Shown: one piece after another, positions 21,238 through 29,709 of the stretch
How positions within the stretch are numbered: position 1 is the first letter of the stretch
Layout: each line of letters opens with the position of its first letter
Assembly (NCBI GenBank): GCA_900315435.1
Contig: OMYY01000019.1
Location: 1-54,055 of the forward strand
Direction of reading: 5' to 3'
Length of the DNA: 54,055 nucleotides
Source: an uncultured Spirochaetaceae bacterium
Lineage (GTDB): Bacteria; Spirochaetota; Spirochaetia; Sphaerochaetales; Sphaerochaetaceae
Notes under the pieces: model-generated
What the model was told of the DNA's origin: nothing
What the model saw: only the letters and a program-made list of their open reading frames with translations
Database searches by the model: none
Position numbers and translations under genes: made by a program

Positions 21238-21266
21238 AAAAAAAGGCGGCCTTTCGGCCGCCCTTT
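21238..21266 (-). terminator. Strong terminator of the peptide-export operon
   Basis: GGCGGCC (21245-21251) and GGCCGCC (21256-21262) form a 7-bp GC stem with a TTTC loop. On the minus strand it is followed by seven T. It starts 16 bp after the stop of the precursor peptide gene and closes the operon. Confidence 0.92.
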
Positions 21267-21281
21267 GTGATGTGGATGCCG

Positions 21282-21515
21282 TCAGCTAGCGACGACGTTC
21301 ACCCGAACCCCATCACCATCCTGATACGTGCTCAGTTGTGCGTCGCCATTGGCGGTGACAGCGTAGGAACCATCGGCCCCCACCGTCGTCTCCACCCGGC
21401 TTGGCACCTCTGCATGCAAATGGATGGTAGCGATTTTTGCTCCACCTTCCACTTGGGAAAGGTCGGTATCAGTCAGTGCATTGGCTGTACCGCAAGCTCT
21501 TTTCAGCCACTTCAT
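21282..21515 (-). CDS. Double-glycine leader precursor peptide, putative cargo of the NHLM exporter
   Basis: A 77-residue peptide. Residues 1-25 look like a leader: a basic start, then ALTDTDLSQVEGG, which fits the double-glycine consensus cut by C39 peptidases, with Gly24-Gly25 before the cut. The predicted core (26-77, 52 residues) has no Cys or Trp, is acidic (six Asp/Glu, three Lys/Arg) and alternates Val/Thr/Ala stretches with Asp-Gly turns, suggesting beta strands. The only Cys (8) is in the leader. The ATG at 21515 has a GGAAGGGAG Shine-Dalgarno; the frame from 21578 would overlap the upstream gene and is rejected. It is the last gene of the export operon. The mature function (bacteriocin, signal or surface peptide) is unknown. 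Confidence 0.75.
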   Translation of the reverse strand: MKWLKRACGTANALTDTDLSQVEGGAKIATIHLHAEVPSRVETTVGADGSYAVTANGDAQLSTYQDGDGVRVNVVAS

Positions 21516-21574
21516 TTGAAGTTTCTCCCTTCCTATAATGTACTCCGAAACAAGGGAACAGGCAAGTGAAGGAA

Positions 21575-23761
21575 TCAAAGTCCATGCGATGGCGCAGTGC
21601 CGTTCACCAGTCGTGAGAACTGGGTGCCGGGAACGGCCAGTTCATCATACGTCCCCTCCTCGACAATCCGTCCCTTGTCCAGGACAAGGATCTTCGAGCA
21701 TTGCTTGATGGTGGAGAGACGATGGCTGACGATGATACGGGTGCACTTCTCGTTCTCCAGATACATGGAGATACGTTTCTGCGTCAGGTAGTCCAGCGAG
21801 TTCATCGCCTCGTCCAGAATCATCATCTTCGGATGGGAGACCAAGGCCCTTGCGATCATGATACGCTGCTTCTGCCCGCCGGAAAGACCGCCAGCACCCT
21901 CGCCCACGAAGGTATGGAGCCCCATCGGCATTTTCTGAATATCATCCCAGATGCCGGCTATCTCGCAGGCTTTCCGGATCTCCTCATCGGTGATTGCGGA
22001 ATCCATGATCGAGATGTTGCTGCGGATATCCCCCGCGAAAAGCTTGCCGTTCTGCATCACCGTGCCGATATGGCATCGAAGCGAGGGGAGATCCAGCGTG
22101 TTGAGGTCCTTGCCGTCGTAATAGATCGCACCATCGTCCATCTTCAAAAAGCCAAGCAACAACTTGACCAGCGTGCTCTTGCCGCTGCCCGTGCGCCCCA
22201 CCAAGGCGACATAATCCCCCGCATTGATCGTGAAGGAGCAGCCGGAGAGGACATGGGTGTTCTGTCCAGGATACTTGAAGCCAACGTGGTTCACCTCGAT
22301 CTTTCCCTGCAAGTCACGTACAAATTGCTTCTCGCTGGTCAGCTCGGGAACCGAGGAGAGAATCGGGTCTCCGACCTCGAGGTTCGACTGGATCCTTGCG
22401 AAGGTCTGCACCACATCGACGACCGAAAAGAAGGCGCTGCTGATAATCCCGATCGAGACCGTGTAGGCGATATAGTCCGCCTGGGAAAGACTTCTGTGGA
22501 CCGCCATAAGGCAGACGGCCAGCGTGCCCAGATAGCTGAGGGTACGGATCAGGACATTGCTGACAATCAGGGAAATCGGCTGGACATAGGTAGGATCCTG
22601 CGCATTGCGGTACAGCGACGCCCATCGGGCGAACGCCCGTTTCTCCGCGCCGCCGTTCTTCAGCTTCTGCATACCCTCGTACATGTTGTAGACGAGGGTG
22701 TAAAGCACCGATGAACGCTTCTGCACCATCCGCTCCGCCCGAAGCAGACGTCGTTCCGCGGAAACGGCAATCAACACCTCGGCCAGCAGGAAGAGCACCG
22801 TCACATAGACAATCGGCCCGCCGAACTTGTTTGCCTGAACCAAGAGGGAAAGCATCATCACCATCTCCAAGCCGCTGCCGGTCAAAAGGTTGGCCACCAG
22901 TCTGGGTACCTTGCCAAGAGCGTTGATCTGGGCGGAAACCTCTCCGGTGGCGAACTTGGAAAAGTAGGAGCTCGGCAGGTACATCAACCGCCCCATGACC
23001 GCGTTCTGGAAATCAAGCTCCAGCGCGTTCCCCAGCCGGAAACCAGCCACTATCTTGCTCATGCTGAAAAACGCCTTTCCCAGCAACACGCCGCCAAGGC
23101 AGAAAAAGGCGGAAACCACCATCACCTTCTGCCCAGTCGGAGCGAGACGGCCGATCAGGTACCGATAGGCAAGCGGGGTAAAGAAACTCAGCAACGTCAC
23201 CAGGATGGAAAGGATGACGAAGATCCACAGGTCGGAAAGCGAGAGGTTTCCGAGAAGATACCTGCCCACGTCCTTATGGTCCAGCTCCCGCTGGGGAAGC
23301 GGCTTGATGAAGACCTGGGCATGATCGGAAATCTCCATCGCCGTCTGGGCGTTGACTGGGCGCCGGTGTCCGGCGCGATAGTCAAAGAAGGTGTATCCAT
23401 CAAACTTGCGGGGAATCAGTGCTATGACCGCCTGGCCGTCGGAGCTCTTGGCCAGCATGACCGAGCGGCTCCGCCTCCACCAGCCCTTCTCCAGCTTCAC
23501 CGTACGGGAAATATAGCCCGCCGGGCGCAGGATGCGCTCCAGATGGACCGTGCCATCCTCGTCGCTCTCACGGCTGACGCTGGTGTCATCCAGATGGAAG
23601 TACTTGCAGATTTCCTCGGCGGAGTTGCGGGCGCTGCGACGCTTCAGCTCGCTGGACGTGGTCACCTTCTCACCCACCAACAGGCTGGCGATATCGGTGA
23701 ACGAGCGCTCGACAGTCCTCTGGTCCGCTTCCATCCGTTCTTTGATCGTCTTGTCTTCCAT
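21575..23761 (-). CDS. NHLM-type export ABC transporter, permease/ATPase without peptidase domain
   Basis: A 728-residue fused transporter. The first 170 residues are a soluble domain. Membrane segments follow (about 185-470), then an ABC ATPase with Walker A GRTGSGKST, signature LSGGQKQR, Walker B MMILDEAMNSLD and switch VSHRLST. In NHLM-type clusters this protein pairs with the C39-bearing ABC protein to export a leader-cleaved peptide. The ATG at 23761 lies 2 bp after the partner's stop; the open frame continues upstream to 24139 but is low-complexity antisense-like sequence and not coding. Confidence 0.88.
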   Translation of the reverse strand: MEDKTIKERMEADQRTVERSFTDIASLLVGEKVTTSSELKRRSARNSAEEICKYFHLDDTSVSRESDEDGTVHLERILRPAGYISRTVKLEKGWWRRSRSVMLAKSSDGQAVIALIPRKFDGYTFFDYRAGHRRPVNAQTAMEISDHAQVFIKPLPQRELDHKDVGRYLLGNLSLSDLWIFVILSILVTLLSFFTPLAYRYLIGRLAPTGQKVMVVSAFFCLGGVLLGKAFFSMSKIVAGFRLGNALELDFQNAVMGRLMYLPSSYFSKFATGEVSAQINALGKVPRLVANLLTGSGLEMVMMLSLLVQANKFGGPIVYVTVLFLLAEVLIAVSAERRLLRAERMVQKRSSVLYTLVYNMYEGMQKLKNGGAEKRAFARWASLYRNAQDPTYVQPISLIVSNVLIRTLSYLGTLAVCLMAVHRSLSQADYIAYTVSIGIISSAFFSVVDVVQTFARIQSNLEVGDPILSSVPELTSEKQFVRDLQGKIEVNHVGFKYPGQNTHVLSGCSFTINAGDYVALVGRTGSGKSTLVKLLLGFLKMDDGAIYYDGKDLNTLDLPSLRCHIGTVMQNGKLFAGDIRSNISIMDSAITDEEIRKACEIAGIWDDIQKMPMGLHTFVGEGAGGLSGGQKQRIMIARALVSHPKMMILDEAMNSLDYLTQKRISMYLENEKCTRIIVSHRLSTIKQCSKILVLDKGRIVEEGTYDELAVPGTQFSRLVNGTAPSHGL

Positions 23762-23763
23762 CG

Positions 23764-25905
23764 CTACTCCACCATGACCAAGTGGGAATACAGTCCTCCG
23801 GACGCGAAAAGTTCGGCATGGGTACCCCGTTCGACGATCCTTCCCTGGTCTATGACGATGATCTCGTCGCAATCCCTGATCGCGGCGAGCCGATGGCTGA
23901 TGACGACTGTCGTAAGTCCGCGCGCCCAGATGTTCCGCATGATCTGTCCCTCGGTATCGGCATCCAACGCGTTGGTCGCCTCGTCCAGGAACAGGATGCT
24001 CGGGTTGGTGGCCAGCACCCGGGCAATCTCGAAGCGTTCCAGCTGGCCACCGGAGAAGTTCCGTCCATTCTCCGCCACCGGGCAGTAATAGCCCCCCTCG
24101 CGGAGCATGATCTCGTCGTGGATCATCGCGTCCTTGCAAGCCTGGACAACCGCCTCGTCCTTGATGGTCGGATCCCAGAACTTCAAGTTCTCCATCAGGG
24201 TGCCCGGAAATACCTTGATGTCCTGGTCGACCACCCCAATCGAGGCGGCAAGCACCTCACGGGGATATTCGCCACGGTCAACCCCGTCAAGCAGAATCTC
24301 TCCGCTCCAAGGCTGGTAGAGCCCCAACAGCAACTTCCCCAACGTGCTTTTGCCGCTACCCGTCCTGCCGACAATGGCGATCCTCTTGCCCTTGGGAATC
24401 TCCAGACAGAGATCCTGCAGGATCGGTTGCTGCAGATGGTTGTAGCCGAAGACCAAGTTCCGGAATCCGATGTCCCCCGCCAATTTCACCAACGGGCGCT
24501 TGGGGTCACCCTGGGTCAGCAGAGGATCCTTCGGATAGGAGAGAATATCATCGATACGGGTTACCGAGGTATGCAGCTGCGCCATCTTGTCGTGACTGGC
24601 AAGAAGCTGCTCGACGGGATGCATGAACTGGTTCATGAAGCTCTGGAATGCCATCAGCACACCCAGCGTCAGCTGGCCGTCCATCACGAAGAGCACCCCG
24701 AGAGAGAGAATCAACAAACTGGAAAGCCCCTGCAGGAACTCGGGAACCACCGCGGAGAGAACCTCGCTCGGAACATGATGGACGATAATCCGGTTGAGCG
24801 ACGCCCTGCGGTCGGCCCACCGGTTGAAGTAGCCAGCCTCGGCGCCCAGGCTCTTGATGGTGTCCATCATGCTGATGCCGCCAATCTCGATGGTCTGCAA
24901 GTGCGCCTGCTCCACCGCCACGTTCTCGGCATAGTTGCGCCGGGAAGTCCGGGAAATCAAGTTGGAGGACAGGATCAGGATGGTACAGGCCAGGCCGATG
25001 ATGGTCAATGGAATGCTGGTGGACAGCATGATCCATACATAGCAGACCGCCATCAGCACGTTGACCACCGAGGGGACGATCCAGGCGGCGATGATCAAGG
25101 ACATCTCCTCCGCCTCGTCCATGCGGCCGGCTATATCTGCGGCGTAGCGCTGGGTGAAGAACTCCAAAGGCAGGCAGAGGCTGTACCAGAAAAACCGCAC
25201 CGAGCCAAGTATGGTCATCTCGGTACGAAAGCGCCGCATGGCCAGCTTCTCGACAATGCTGGTGGCGAACTGGATGAGAACCAGCACAAGGAAGGCCGCC
25301 CCATAGAGCCGCAACCACCCGTTTTGTCTTGAGGACAAGACCGAATCAAGGAAGACCTTGTGCATCAGGGTGAAACCGATGGTGACGATGGTAGTCATCA
25401 GCGTGCAGAGCGTGGCGAAAGCCATCGACCTCCACATCAACCCCACCCGGCCCATCACATAGCGGGAAACGCTGGAGCGTTTGGACTGTTTCTCGAAATG
25501 CGGACCTGGGATAAAGCTCATGCAGACACCGGTGAACATCTTGTCCAACGTCTCCATCGTCACCTTCACCTTTCCTCGTGCCGGGTCATTGATCACCGCC
25601 TTGCGCCCGAAAAAGCCGTCCAACACCACATAGTGGTCGAATCCCCAGTGGATGATGGCGGGAAGCTGTGCCTGGTGGCGCAGGTAGGCGAGGTCGCAGG
25701 TGACACTGGTGGTCTCGAAGCCGTACGAACGTGCGGTCTTCACCAAGGCCAAGGCGCTGGAACCGTCACGGCTGACCCCGCAGTCCAGCCGCACCTTGCT
25801 GAGCGGGATGTACTTCTCGTAATAGGCGCAGACCATGGCCAGACAGGCAGCCCCGCACTCTGCCGCCTCCATCTGCATGATCTGGGGAACCCTTGCCACC
25901 GACAC
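23764..25905 (-). CDS. NHLM-type export ABC transporter with C39 peptidase domain
   Basis: A 713-residue peptidase-permease-ATPase. The C39 domain (about 1-135) has all catalytic residues: Gln11, Cys17 (MEAAECGAACLAM), His91 (GFDHYVVL) and Asp107 (NDPARG). It should cut after the Gly-Gly of a leader while exporting the core. About six membrane segments follow, then the ATPase: GRTGSGKST, FSGGQLERFEIARVL, LFLDEATNALD, VISHRLAAI. It lies 3 bp after the HlyD-like gene and 2 bp before the second ABC gene, all one transcript. Confidence 0.93.
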   Translation of the reverse strand: MSVARVPQIMQMEAAECGAACLAMVCAYYEKYIPLSKVRLDCGVSRDGSSALALVKTARSYGFETTSVTCDLAYLRHQAQLPAIIHWGFDHYVVLDGFFGRKAVINDPARGKVKVTMETLDKMFTGVCMSFIPGPHFEKQSKRSSVSRYVMGRVGLMWRSMAFATLCTLMTTIVTIGFTLMHKVFLDSVLSSRQNGWLRLYGAAFLVLVLIQFATSIVEKLAMRRFRTEMTILGSVRFFWYSLCLPLEFFTQRYAADIAGRMDEAEEMSLIIAAWIVPSVVNVLMAVCYVWIMLSTSIPLTIIGLACTILILSSNLISRTSRRNYAENVAVEQAHLQTIEIGGISMMDTIKSLGAEAGYFNRWADRRASLNRIIVHHVPSEVLSAVVPEFLQGLSSLLILSLGVLFVMDGQLTLGVLMAFQSFMNQFMHPVEQLLASHDKMAQLHTSVTRIDDILSYPKDPLLTQGDPKRPLVKLAGDIGFRNLVFGYNHLQQPILQDLCLEIPKGKRIAIVGRTGSGKSTLGKLLLGLYQPWSGEILLDGVDRGEYPREVLAASIGVVDQDIKVFPGTLMENLKFWDPTIKDEAVVQACKDAMIHDEIMLREGGYYCPVAENGRNFSGGQLERFEIARVLATNPSILFLDEATNALDADTEGQIMRNIWARGLTTVVISHRLAAIRDCDEIIVIDQGRIVERGTHAELFASGGLYSHLVMVE

Positions 25906-25908
25906 CGC

Positions 25909-26439
25909 TCATCTCCCCTGGACCATGTATTCGATCGGCCGCTTGTCGCTGAGGGTGATGGTGACATCGCACAGCGTCTCCTCCGCCACACCGGCCGGTT
26001 CGTCCATCTGGACCACCAGACGGCGCATGAACTGGCTGGTCACCAAGTTGGACTGCAGCCAGTCGCTGGAAATCCGCTCGTCCAGCTCACGCTGCGAGTA
26101 GGGATGCTCGTCGATGGCGACCACCTTCCCGGTTCCAATGTTCCGGCCCAGGTAAGAGACGCTGACGAACGCATTCTCCAACCCGGCGGAGTATGAGGTC
26201 GCGTCCGCATAGGCCGTGATGTGGGTATCGTCGGTAACCACTCCTTTCAGGCTCGCGGTAAACGGCAGGTGTCCGAGGAAAAGCCACCCCATAGCGCTGG
26301 CAATCAGGACGGCGATTCCCAGTCCCAGGGACCACCACCAAGGCCGGTTGGTCACCACATAGACATCCAGTTCCTCGGGAGAGTTCAGCCCCTTCAGGCT
26401 CTCCTCGCGGTAAATTCGCTTCTCGGTCTCGTTATCCAT
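25909..26439 (-). CDS. Short HlyD-like secretion protein of the NHLM export system
   Basis: A 176-residue membrane-fusion-type protein. A cytoplasmic N terminus with REESLKGLNSPEELD, a block typical of NHLM secretion proteins, precedes one membrane segment (LGLGIAVLIASAMGWLFLG, near residue 50). A periplasmic domain of about 105 residues follows. It is clearly shorter than usual for this family: no coiled-coil hairpin or lipoyl repeat is visible, so it may not reach far across the periplasm. The ATG at 26439 has a GGAGG Shine-Dalgarno and overlaps the MFS stop by 8 bp. Confidence 0.78.
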   Translation of the reverse strand: MDNETEKRIYREESLKGLNSPEELDVYVVTNRPWWWSLGLGIAVLIASAMGWLFLGHLPFTASLKGVVTDDTHITAYADATSYSAGLENAFVSVSYLGRNIGTGKVVAIDEHPYSQRELDERISSDWLQSNLVTSQFMRRLVVQMDEPAGVAEETLCDVTITLSDKRPIEYMVQGR

Positions 26440-27727
26440 GGAAATCCTCCGGTTCTCCTCGGTCCACATGGCGCATCAGCAGATAGGCAAGCCCCATCAT
26501 TGCGCCTCCGAACAAGAAAATCGAACGATATCCCCACAGGTCGATACAGCCACCGGTCAGCGGAGGCGCGAGAATCGAGGCGAGCTGATTGAAGAAATAG
26601 TAGAGCCCTGTGTAGACACCCACCGTCTCGTAACTGGACATCTGCCACAGCATCGGAAAGCTGTTGGTGACAATGGCGACCCAGAAGATTCCAAAAAGGA
26701 ACATCAACACCCAGAAAGAGGCCAATCTGAGACCGGAATCCCAAGAAAGCGAGATGCGCCCATGCACAAAGACAAGGAGCAGGACGACCACCACCAGAAC
26801 GAGACTTCCGCGGATGGTCTTTCCACGACCGTGCCTATGGGCGAACCGGCCGGAAGGAATGGCGAACACGGCGTAGGCGATGCCGACCATGCCGGCCGCG
26901 AGACTCGCCGACCCCCCGCTGGTACCCAGCTCGTGGATCGAATAAGCCCCGATAAAGGGAAGGATGCCCTGATAGGCCAGGAACCACAGGAACAGGGAAA
27001 GCAAAATGAAGAGAGCGCTCTTGTCCTTTTCATGGAAAATGACGGAAATGGAATGAAGAAGCGGTTCATGGCTTTCCTCCTCGTTTCCATCCCCTTTTCC
27101 GTCGCGCTCCTTGACAAAAAGGAAGAGCAGGATACAGGCGACGACGACAAAGATTCCCGCGACAGGAAAAGCAAGCACATCTTTCTGGGGCTCGGAAAAA
27201 CCGGGTACCTTGACCGGCACGTCCATCAAGCGAGCAAGACCGATGGTACCGACGATGGCGGCAATCCCCCCCATCGTGTTGATTACCCCGTTCGCCTCGC
27301 TCCGTAGGTCACCGGGAACCATGTCCGGCATCAGGGCGACAATCGGACCTCTGGCGGCCTGCTTGAAAAGATTCAGGAGAAAGAGAAGCGCAACCAGCGC
27401 ATACAGATGGGCCAGCGCCGCATAGGGAATCAGACCGAAAGCCAAAGCCGTCACGGGAAGGCAGATGACAATGAAAGGCATGCGCCTGCCGATGGGGGTG
27501 TGCAACCGGTCGCTCAACGAACTGAAAAAGGGAATCAGAAAGACGGCGAGGACGTTGTCCAGCGTCATGATGGCGCCGACCAACGCATGACTCTGGATGT
27601 AGCGTAGCAAGAAGACCGGCACGAAGGTATCGTACAGAGGATCCATCAACCCGACAGTGAAAAAACCAAGCCCGATCAGGAATGTCGTCAGATAGTAGCC
27701 CTTCAGGCTTTTCTTGGGTGCAGCCAT
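26432..27727 (-). CDS. MFS transporter (SLC45/GPH-like)
   Basis: A 431-residue carrier with about twelve membrane segments. The loop between segments 2 and 3 has SDRLHTPIGRRMPFI, typical of SLC45-type and related sugar carriers, and a charged central loop (KERDGKGDGNEEESHEP) joins the halves. It is the first gene of the peptide-export operon and overlaps the HlyD-like gene by 8 bp. Its role there is not known: it could supply a solute, export the peptide's partner, or be a passenger. There is no Shine-Dalgarno, and a TATCAT -10 box ends 7 nt before the ATG. Confidence 0.8.
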   Translation of the reverse strand: MAAPKKSLKGYYLTTFLIGLGFFTVGLMDPLYDTFVPVFLLRYIQSHALVGAIMTLDNVLAVFLIPFFSSLSDRLHTPIGRRMPFIVICLPVTALAFGLIPYAALAHLYALVALLFLLNLFKQAARGPIVALMPDMVPGDLRSEANGVINTMGGIAAIVGTIGLARLMDVPVKVPGFSEPQKDVLAFPVAGIFVVVACILLFLFVKERDGKGDGNEEESHEPLLHSISVIFHEKDKSALFILLSLFLWFLAYQGILPFIGAYSIHELGTSGGSASLAAGMVGIAYAVFAIPSGRFAHRHGRGKTIRGSLVLVVVVLLLVFVHGRISLSWDSGLRLASFWVLMFLFGIFWVAIVTNSFPMLWQMSSYETVGVYTGLYYFFNQLASILAPPLTGGCIDLWGYRSIFLFGGAMMGLAYLLMRHVDRGEPEDFHG

Positions 27728-28869: not shown

Positions 28870-29709
28870 TTAGTGGGAGCTGGACGCTCCCAGCAAGTCG
28901 AGCACCTTCCTGATCTGTTCTTTACGGATTGTCTCGCGCTGCTCGGTATATTCCTCCGGGGTCAGCACGGTCGGATTCTCGCGGATCTCGAACGAAGGAG
29001 CGGTGATGACCGGATTCTTCGCCTCAGGCGCTTCCTCGGGCACCTGCAGGATGCCACTCTGCAAATCCTGCTCGATGGCGTCAAGGGCACGCCCGACAGC
29101 CTCGGTGATGATTCCTTCACGCTGCGCCTCGACGGTATCCTCGGCAACTCCCTCCATATTGGGTCCGAGATCGCTGGCAAGACGGGCGATGTAGTCGGCC
29201 TTGTGGGCCTCGAACTCGGCGGCAACGACAGGAACGATACGGGGAATCACCGAGTCGACAGCCTGCGGGACGTAGGCTTCCAGCTTGGCCTGGATCTCGT
29301 CGTCGGTCCACGCCCGCAGCTCCTGCAACTGGGCGGCAACCTCGTCACGGAAGGAAGCGATATCGGAGGCAATGGTGCTTTGCATCTGGCTGGCAACGGC
29401 AGCCTGCACCTTCTGGTCCATTTCGGCCTCCACCTGGCCGAGCAGATGGTCGGTGACTGTCTGGTCGCCAAGAAGCTTCTGCTGGATGTAGGGATAGAGC
29501 TGCTCGACCTGTCTCTGACGCTCCTCTTCTACGGTGCGCCGGGCCCGTGCGGGCTCCTCGACCTCGATCAAAGGCTGGAGTTGCCGCTCGCGGGCAACCT
29601 CGATCATCTCGTTGTCCATCGACGGGCGGGTCATCCAAAGCGTGGCAAAGCCCCCCATAGCGACAACGGTCGTAACCACCAGCAGCGTAACACGTCCCGT
29701 CTGTTTCAT
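28870..29709 (-). CDS. Membrane-anchored coiled-coil protein of unknown function
   Basis: A 279-residue protein with one N-terminal hydrophobic segment (TLLVVTTVVAMGGFATLWM, residues 8-26) and no clear signal-cleavage site, so probably tethered. Residues 45-225 are rich in Glu, Gln, Ala and Arg with spacing suited to a long helix or coiled coil. A Pro-rich break near 230-245 precedes a last helix. I do not recognise it. It overlaps the end of coaE by 4 bp and so belongs to the polA-coaE transcript. The Shine-Dalgarno is GGAAGG. Confidence 0.7.
   Translation of the reverse strand: MKQTGRVTLLVVTTVVAMGGFATLWMTRPSMDNEMIEVARERQLQPLIEVEEPARARRTVEEERQRQVEQLYPYIQQKLLGDQTVTDHLLGQVEAEMDQKVQAAVASQMQSTIASDIASFRDEVAAQLQELRAWTDDEIQAKLEAYVPQAVDSVIPRIVPVVAAEFEAHKADYIARLASDLGPNMEGVAEDTVEAQREGIITEAVGRALDAIEQDLQSGILQVPEEAPEAKNPVITAPSFEIRENPTVLTPEEYTEQRETIRKEQIRKVLDLLGASSSH

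Follow-up and report, generated by a model that had tools for sequence, protein, structure and literature searches.

An export operon ending in a double-glycine peptide gene

The window, i.e., the whole 54,055-nucleotide stretch of DNA analyzed here, contains at 21282-27727 an operon of five co-directional genes on the minus strand, whose coordinates we confirmed. The features of the operon, from the terminator upward, are as follows:

21241-21266, minus strand: intrinsic terminator, an 11-bp GC-rich hairpin with a U-run (folding against shuffles)
21282-21515, minus strand: 77-aa precursor peptide gene (homologues in genomes G001 and G002 adjoin the same exporter; dN/dS ~0.13)
21285-21440, minus strand: 52-aa core, assigned to a Sphaerochaetaceae mini-protein family whose members in other genera have Sec-type signals
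21441-21515, minus strand: 25-aa double-glycine leader MKWLKRACGTANALTDTDLSQVEGG (motif scan, leader alignment, and whole-genome leader search)
21525-21533, minus strand: ribosome-binding site GGAAGGGAG of the peptide (from the sequence)
21575-23761, minus strand: partner ABC permease/ATPase without a peptidase domain (ABC2; best family TIGR03797, below cut-off)
23764-25905, minus strand: C39-peptidase ABC exporter (C39-ABC) with intact catalytic residues (best family TIGR03796, below cut-off)
25909-26439, minus strand: short HlyD-like protein, 176 aa (TIGR03794, E 1.6e-5, model positions 2-100 of 421)
26432-27727, minus strand: MFS carrier, a positional member of the transcription unit but a conserved family gene untied to the exporter

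The tight spacing and overlap noted in the preliminary description were borne out: the MFS and HlyD-like genes overlap by 8 nt, and the gaps that follow are 3 nt (HlyD-like to C39-ABC), 2 nt (C39-ABC to ABC2), and 59 nt (ABC2 to the peptide gene). A good ribosome-binding site, GGAAGGGAG, lies 9 nt upstream of the peptide ATG, and the terminator said to close the operon is indeed strong, its hairpin and U-run folding with z = -3.5 against shuffles. The C39-ABC protein is full-length, matches Peptidase_C39 (PF03412) at E 8.3e-33, and retains Gln11, Cys17, His91, and Asp107, as first described. Third-position G+C of the exporter equals that of housekeeping neighbor genes, so there is no sign of its recent horizontal transfer. 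Overall, the operon is real and conserved.

The exporter had initially been called NHLM-type. This stands insofar as the nearest family matches are of that kind, but none of the three proteins reaches its curated cut-off: the C39-ABC scores 776.1 bits against TIGR03796, its best family (cut-off 853.3), the partner ABC 550.3 bits against TIGR03797 (cut-off 709.4), and the HlyD-like protein 24.0 bits against TIGR03794 (cut-off 156.2). Neither a nitrile-hydratase-like nor a Nif11-like leader was matched in the peptide in Pfam or NCBIfam. The operon thus resembles the NHLP/Nif11 export cassette (TIGR03794, TIGR03796, TIGR03797; Haft et al. 2010, PMC2887384) in combining a HlyD-like protein, a C39-ABC, and a second ABC without peptidase, whereas it differs in its sub-cut-off scores, in a HlyD-like protein of 176 aa set against a 421-position model, in a 25-aa leader with no similarity to nitrile-hydratase or Nif11 leaders, and in having no modification enzyme (PMC2887384). 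In appearance, and probably in function, the window exporter resembles a peptidase-containing ABC transporter paired with a substrate.

The MFS carrier had been counted in the exporter unit, a placement that did not hold. The gene is conserved in single copy in 92 of 139 family genomes and, at most of the loci examined, adjoins epmB with no exporter present; we rejected it as part of the export system and, judging from this distribution, it is an unrelated neighbor.

The peptide gene is conserved with its exporter

The leader, LTDTDLSQVEGG, conforms to LSx2ELx2IxGG, a type conserved in five peptides of the genus. In its strict form, the motif occurs once in the six frames of the 54-kb window, at the peptide itself, and once in 574 kb of other family loci, adjoining another C39 exporter; with both occurrences at C39 exporters, chance is therefore unlikely.

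Exporter and peptide co-occur in all three genomes of the genus (3/3). In the closest species (G002), the gene after the same exporter encodes a peptide with 94% identity, and in another species (G001) the counterpart beside the exporter shares 31% identity, so that the homology search proposed in the preliminary description did find relatives of the 77-aa peptide next to the same C39/ABC pair. Between the window and G002 peptides, dN is 0.03 and dS 0.24 (dN/dS ~0.13); by this measure, the 77-aa peptide is a real gene under purifying selection. The idea of an apparently unmodified double-glycine cargo beside its exporter is supported, and the linkage is kept in related genomes. The C39 gene of G002 is intact (tblastn check). 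At the G001 locus (L020), C39-ABC, ABC2, and nearby epmB are each split by frameshifts. Because the neighboring epmB is split too, we read these as probably assembly errors, with exporter decay as the alternative.

The core is 52 aa long and acidic (pI 4.86, charge -3), without Cys or Trp, as originally reported. Its suggested beta-rich character is retained as a low-confidence prediction of beta strands: AlphaFold models of the precursor and of one Sec-type member had pLDDT values of only 51.5 and 56.1, respectively, and a PDB sequence search returned only insignificant matches.

Searched over the whole genome, a double-glycine leader profile found only the window peptide and one other, a 71-aa peptide on contig 33 (G000:C33:37177-37392; L021 9178-9393, minus strand) that begins MRTTKPGTARSLNDSELDEVQGG... 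This orphan has no adjoining exporter, lies directly before a gene resembling thiamine pyrophosphokinase by eye, and is also present in G002 (G002:C22; L022 9428-9637). The window exporter probably carries it as a second cargo.

One core family carries two export signals

A profile of the double-glycine peptides, searched over 139 family genomes, recovered many more members with the same core. Sec-type signals were called from hydropathy and AxA-like sites. In seven other genera (g2, g3, g5, g11, g15, g17, and g21; all sequence-verified), a hydrophobic segment stands N-terminal to the core, followed in these Sec-type members outside the genus by an AxA-like site, while all five family members in this genus have a double-glycine leader ending VxGG. 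Peak 11-residue hydropathy is 2.4-3.6 in Sec-type members, whereas the five double-glycine members range from -0.75 to 0.55; the figure does not apply to three Sec-type rows, in which the profile match starts inside the signal, but there the signal is evident from the sequence. The window and G002 peptides, peaking at ≤0.23, have no N-terminal signal of the Sec type. The processing sites of the two kinds of member align, and a profile search with a four-row alignment retrieved four named Sec-type loci, all from Sphaerochaetaceae and including Sphaerochaeta sp. S2.

Among convincing matches in 393 genomes across the phylum, the core family is confined to Sphaerochaetaceae. Matches elsewhere in the phylum were rejected as members, being weak (E ~1e-3) and either carrying internal stops or forming fragments of long frames. 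Conservation of the core extends across genera, and a genome often has several copies with no exporter or immunity gene adjoining. In genus g5 (G006; L078 and L079), at least three Sec-type core paralogues lie on one contig.

No Pfam or NCBIfam model matches the core family, which is an undescribed family of ~55-aa, predicted beta-rich proteins. The preliminary description had suggested a new class of secreted peptide; the lack of a database match agrees with this, but the core is not private to the exporter, since it has Sec-type relatives in seven genera. As judged from these comparisons, what is novel is the core family with its pair of export signals; the peptide system itself is of no new kind.

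The double-glycine and Sec-type cores might instead be unrelated, their similarity a product of convergence between short beta-rich sequences: the cores are short indeed, identity between them is only 20-30%, and the AlphaFold models are weak. We built a profile from 15 Sec-type cores only and ran it on the double-glycine cores and on 10,000 composition-matched shuffles. This profile, free of double-glycine members, gave 1.9e-8 for the G001 core and 1.7e-4 for the window core, against 0.029 for the best shuffle. Common ancestry is also favored by P, R, and N positions present in both kinds of core, by the aligned processing sites, by the confinement to one family, and by a gene neighborhood in common, which together leave convergence highly improbable. 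The orphan core alone gave E 1.7, no score, with the Sec-only profile and is tied to the family via the window and G001 peptides.

Synteny and the direction of the signal change

In a tree of the cores (55 columns, unrooted), the double-glycine members form one clade with 88/85 support, which agrees with a single putative signal change followed by duplication.

Gene order was compared at both peptide loci. In both genomes that have it, the orphan peptide lies <5 kb from Bax1-I and RarA, with purU and a RluD-like gene. At four loci of four other genera (L024, L082, L085, and L087), a Sec-type member adjoins Bax1-I and RarA, and a fifth locus (L081), also with a Sec-type member, shares with the orphan locus the genes that flank the peptide on the opposite side. 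The order differs: in this genus the peptide lies towards RarA, in the others towards Bax1-I. At the operon locus, EF-P and MFS of a Sphaerochaeta genome (G128) enclose a Sec-type member, encoded on the same strand as MFS and without exporter genes, a position that matches that of the exporter and peptide in the window. This is one of ~20 loci examined, the G128 member is very divergent, and the synteny there may be due to chance. Gene order thus supports an apparent in-place signal conversion at one of the two loci and gives a hint of it at the other.

Sec-type members are more widespread, and a Sec signal is therefore the likelier ancestral state; we infer that Sec came first. In a tree of the MFS protein, the placement of the genus is too weakly resolved to prove the direction of change.

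A proposed route through the C39 exporter

We consider it likely that the window peptide is a small protein of the envelope or periplasm that has moved from the Sec route to the C39 exporter and is cut after Gly25, and we infer that the operon is a dedicated processing exporter with its own cargo. Specifically, the cell would make the 77-aa precursor, and the C39 domain of the exporter would bind the LTDTDLSQVEGG leader and cut at the predicted site after Gly25. The C39-ABC, alone or together with the partner ABC, would then move the unmodified 52-aa core across the inner membrane, presumably assisted by the short HlyD-like protein, and deliver it to the periplasm or the cell surface. Since core relatives in other genera appear to be Sec-exported, the signal would have been exchanged in this genus and the core kept.

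The long helical hairpin of an HlyD adaptor normally reaches the outer-membrane channel, and the Sec route ends in the periplasm. TolC-family (OEP) proteins are encoded in the genome, so release of the core to the outside is possible. The HlyD-like protein, 176 aa long and matching the 421-position model at positions 2-100 only, appears too short for a long hairpin, and the core relatives appear to be Sec-exported; because of both, the periplasm or envelope is the favored destination. A more far-reaching version is tentative, and we would put it at rather below even chances: the conversion from Sec to C39-ABC took place in situ at two loci, all Sec copies of the genus were replaced, and the short HlyD-like protein releases the core in the periplasm, so that an ABC exporter takes over the task of Sec.

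If the re-routing is correct, a spirochaete small-protein family is tied to two export routes, a natural experiment with one core and two signals. This would make testable how a C39 exporter acquires a cargo, why an envelope protein leaves Sec, and what role the core plays. A further lesson is that an exporter next to a double-glycine peptide does not by itself mark the peptide as an antibiotic or as a modified natural product.

Neighboring genes and other roles for the peptide

The genes that flank the operon or its exporter part are epmA, EF-P, mntP, GntR, pseudouridine synthase, MFS, epmB, and coaE. No modification enzyme was found in this neighborhood, in line with the preliminary description, apart from epmB of the EF-P pathway. 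Between epmB and coaE lies a conserved gene with no Pfam match (28870-29709, minus strand), and in relatives the open frames at the equivalent position span ~250 to 730 aa.

These surroundings bear on whether the peptide could be a RiPP precursor whose modifying enzyme is encoded elsewhere and which is carried by an NHLP-type natural product exporter. The nearest exporter families are those of the NHLP cassette, the genome encodes two SPASM radical SAM proteins, and epmB, itself a radical SAM gene, is nearby. However, both SPASM genes are on other contigs, no PqqD-like or YcaO protein was found in the genome, and the core contains no Cys; the partners of epmB, EF-P and epmA, are likewise encoded in the window, and the three form a group conserved without the exporter. 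The Sec-type relatives, moreover, argue for a plain folded protein. We regard a RiPP precursor as very unlikely.

Double-glycine peptides exported by C39 exporters are often signals, and the peptide might accordingly be a secreted autoinducer of the genus. No kinase or receptor gene lies in the operon or its flanks, however, and the core, at 52 aa a beta-rich domain that has many Sec-type relatives, does not look like a short variable peptide; a signal, too, seems very unlikely.

A double-glycine leader together with a C39 exporter is typical of class II bacteriocins. The peptide could be an unmodified class II bacteriocin or microcin that kills relatives, its Sec-type counterparts being related bacteriocins, and faint matches were indeed seen to the Bacteriocin_IIc and lactococcin G-beta models. 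These matches are weak, lie mainly at the leader, and stay below cut-off. The core is unlike known bacteriocin families, and the earlier view had likewise set it apart from most bacteriocins. The operon has no separate immunity gene, the core is acidic (pI 4.86), and the multicopy, cross-genus distribution of the core, often away from any exporter or immunity gene, also speaks against a bacteriocin. A precedent for both leader types exists in class IIa bacteriocins, one core family with either double-glycine or Sec leaders, e.g., enterocin P (PMC3546714). The likeness is that of one core family with two unrelated export signals in different species, whereas here the core family is another one, the host is a diderm spirochaete, there is no sign of killing, and neither Cys nor a YGNGV motif is present (PMC3546714). 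All in all, we hold a bacteriocin to be unlikely, and re-routing from Sec remains our preferred reading.

Comparison with other exported proteins and C39 loci

MAM of Faecalibacterium is likewise an unmodified double-glycine-leader protein beside a peptidase-containing ABC transporter, and it was reported in the cell envelope (PMC12184118). It differs in its length of 135 aa, its predicted helical structure, and its phylum, and the passages considered describe no Sec-type relatives of it (PMC12184118). For Ax21 of Xanthomonas, a small secreted protein, both a C39 ABC exporter and Sec have been considered (PMC3897388). Ax21 has no double-glycine motif and is Sec-cut, whereas the window peptide has the motif and lacks a hydrophobic signal; the case cautions against assigning a route from indirect evidence (PMC3897388). 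Relative to these systems, the protein family, the phylum, and the apparent in-place signal change are new here.

Other C39 exporters of Sphaerochaetaceae (genera g7, g8, and g11) have different surroundings, with no core of this family adjoining. Those of genus g11 (L068, L070, and L073) also come with short HlyD-like proteins, of 154-160 aa. At L070 and L073, the exporter lies beside STAS-like, MATE-like, and large sensor-like genes in conserved order, possibly a different, regulated export cassette. C39 exporters of genera g8 and g7 adjoin double-glycine peptides of 64-66 aa with different cores (L071 7029-7223 and 12375-12569, plus strand; L069 5644-5844, minus strand), and at L071 a sigma-factor-like gene lies between exporter and peptide.
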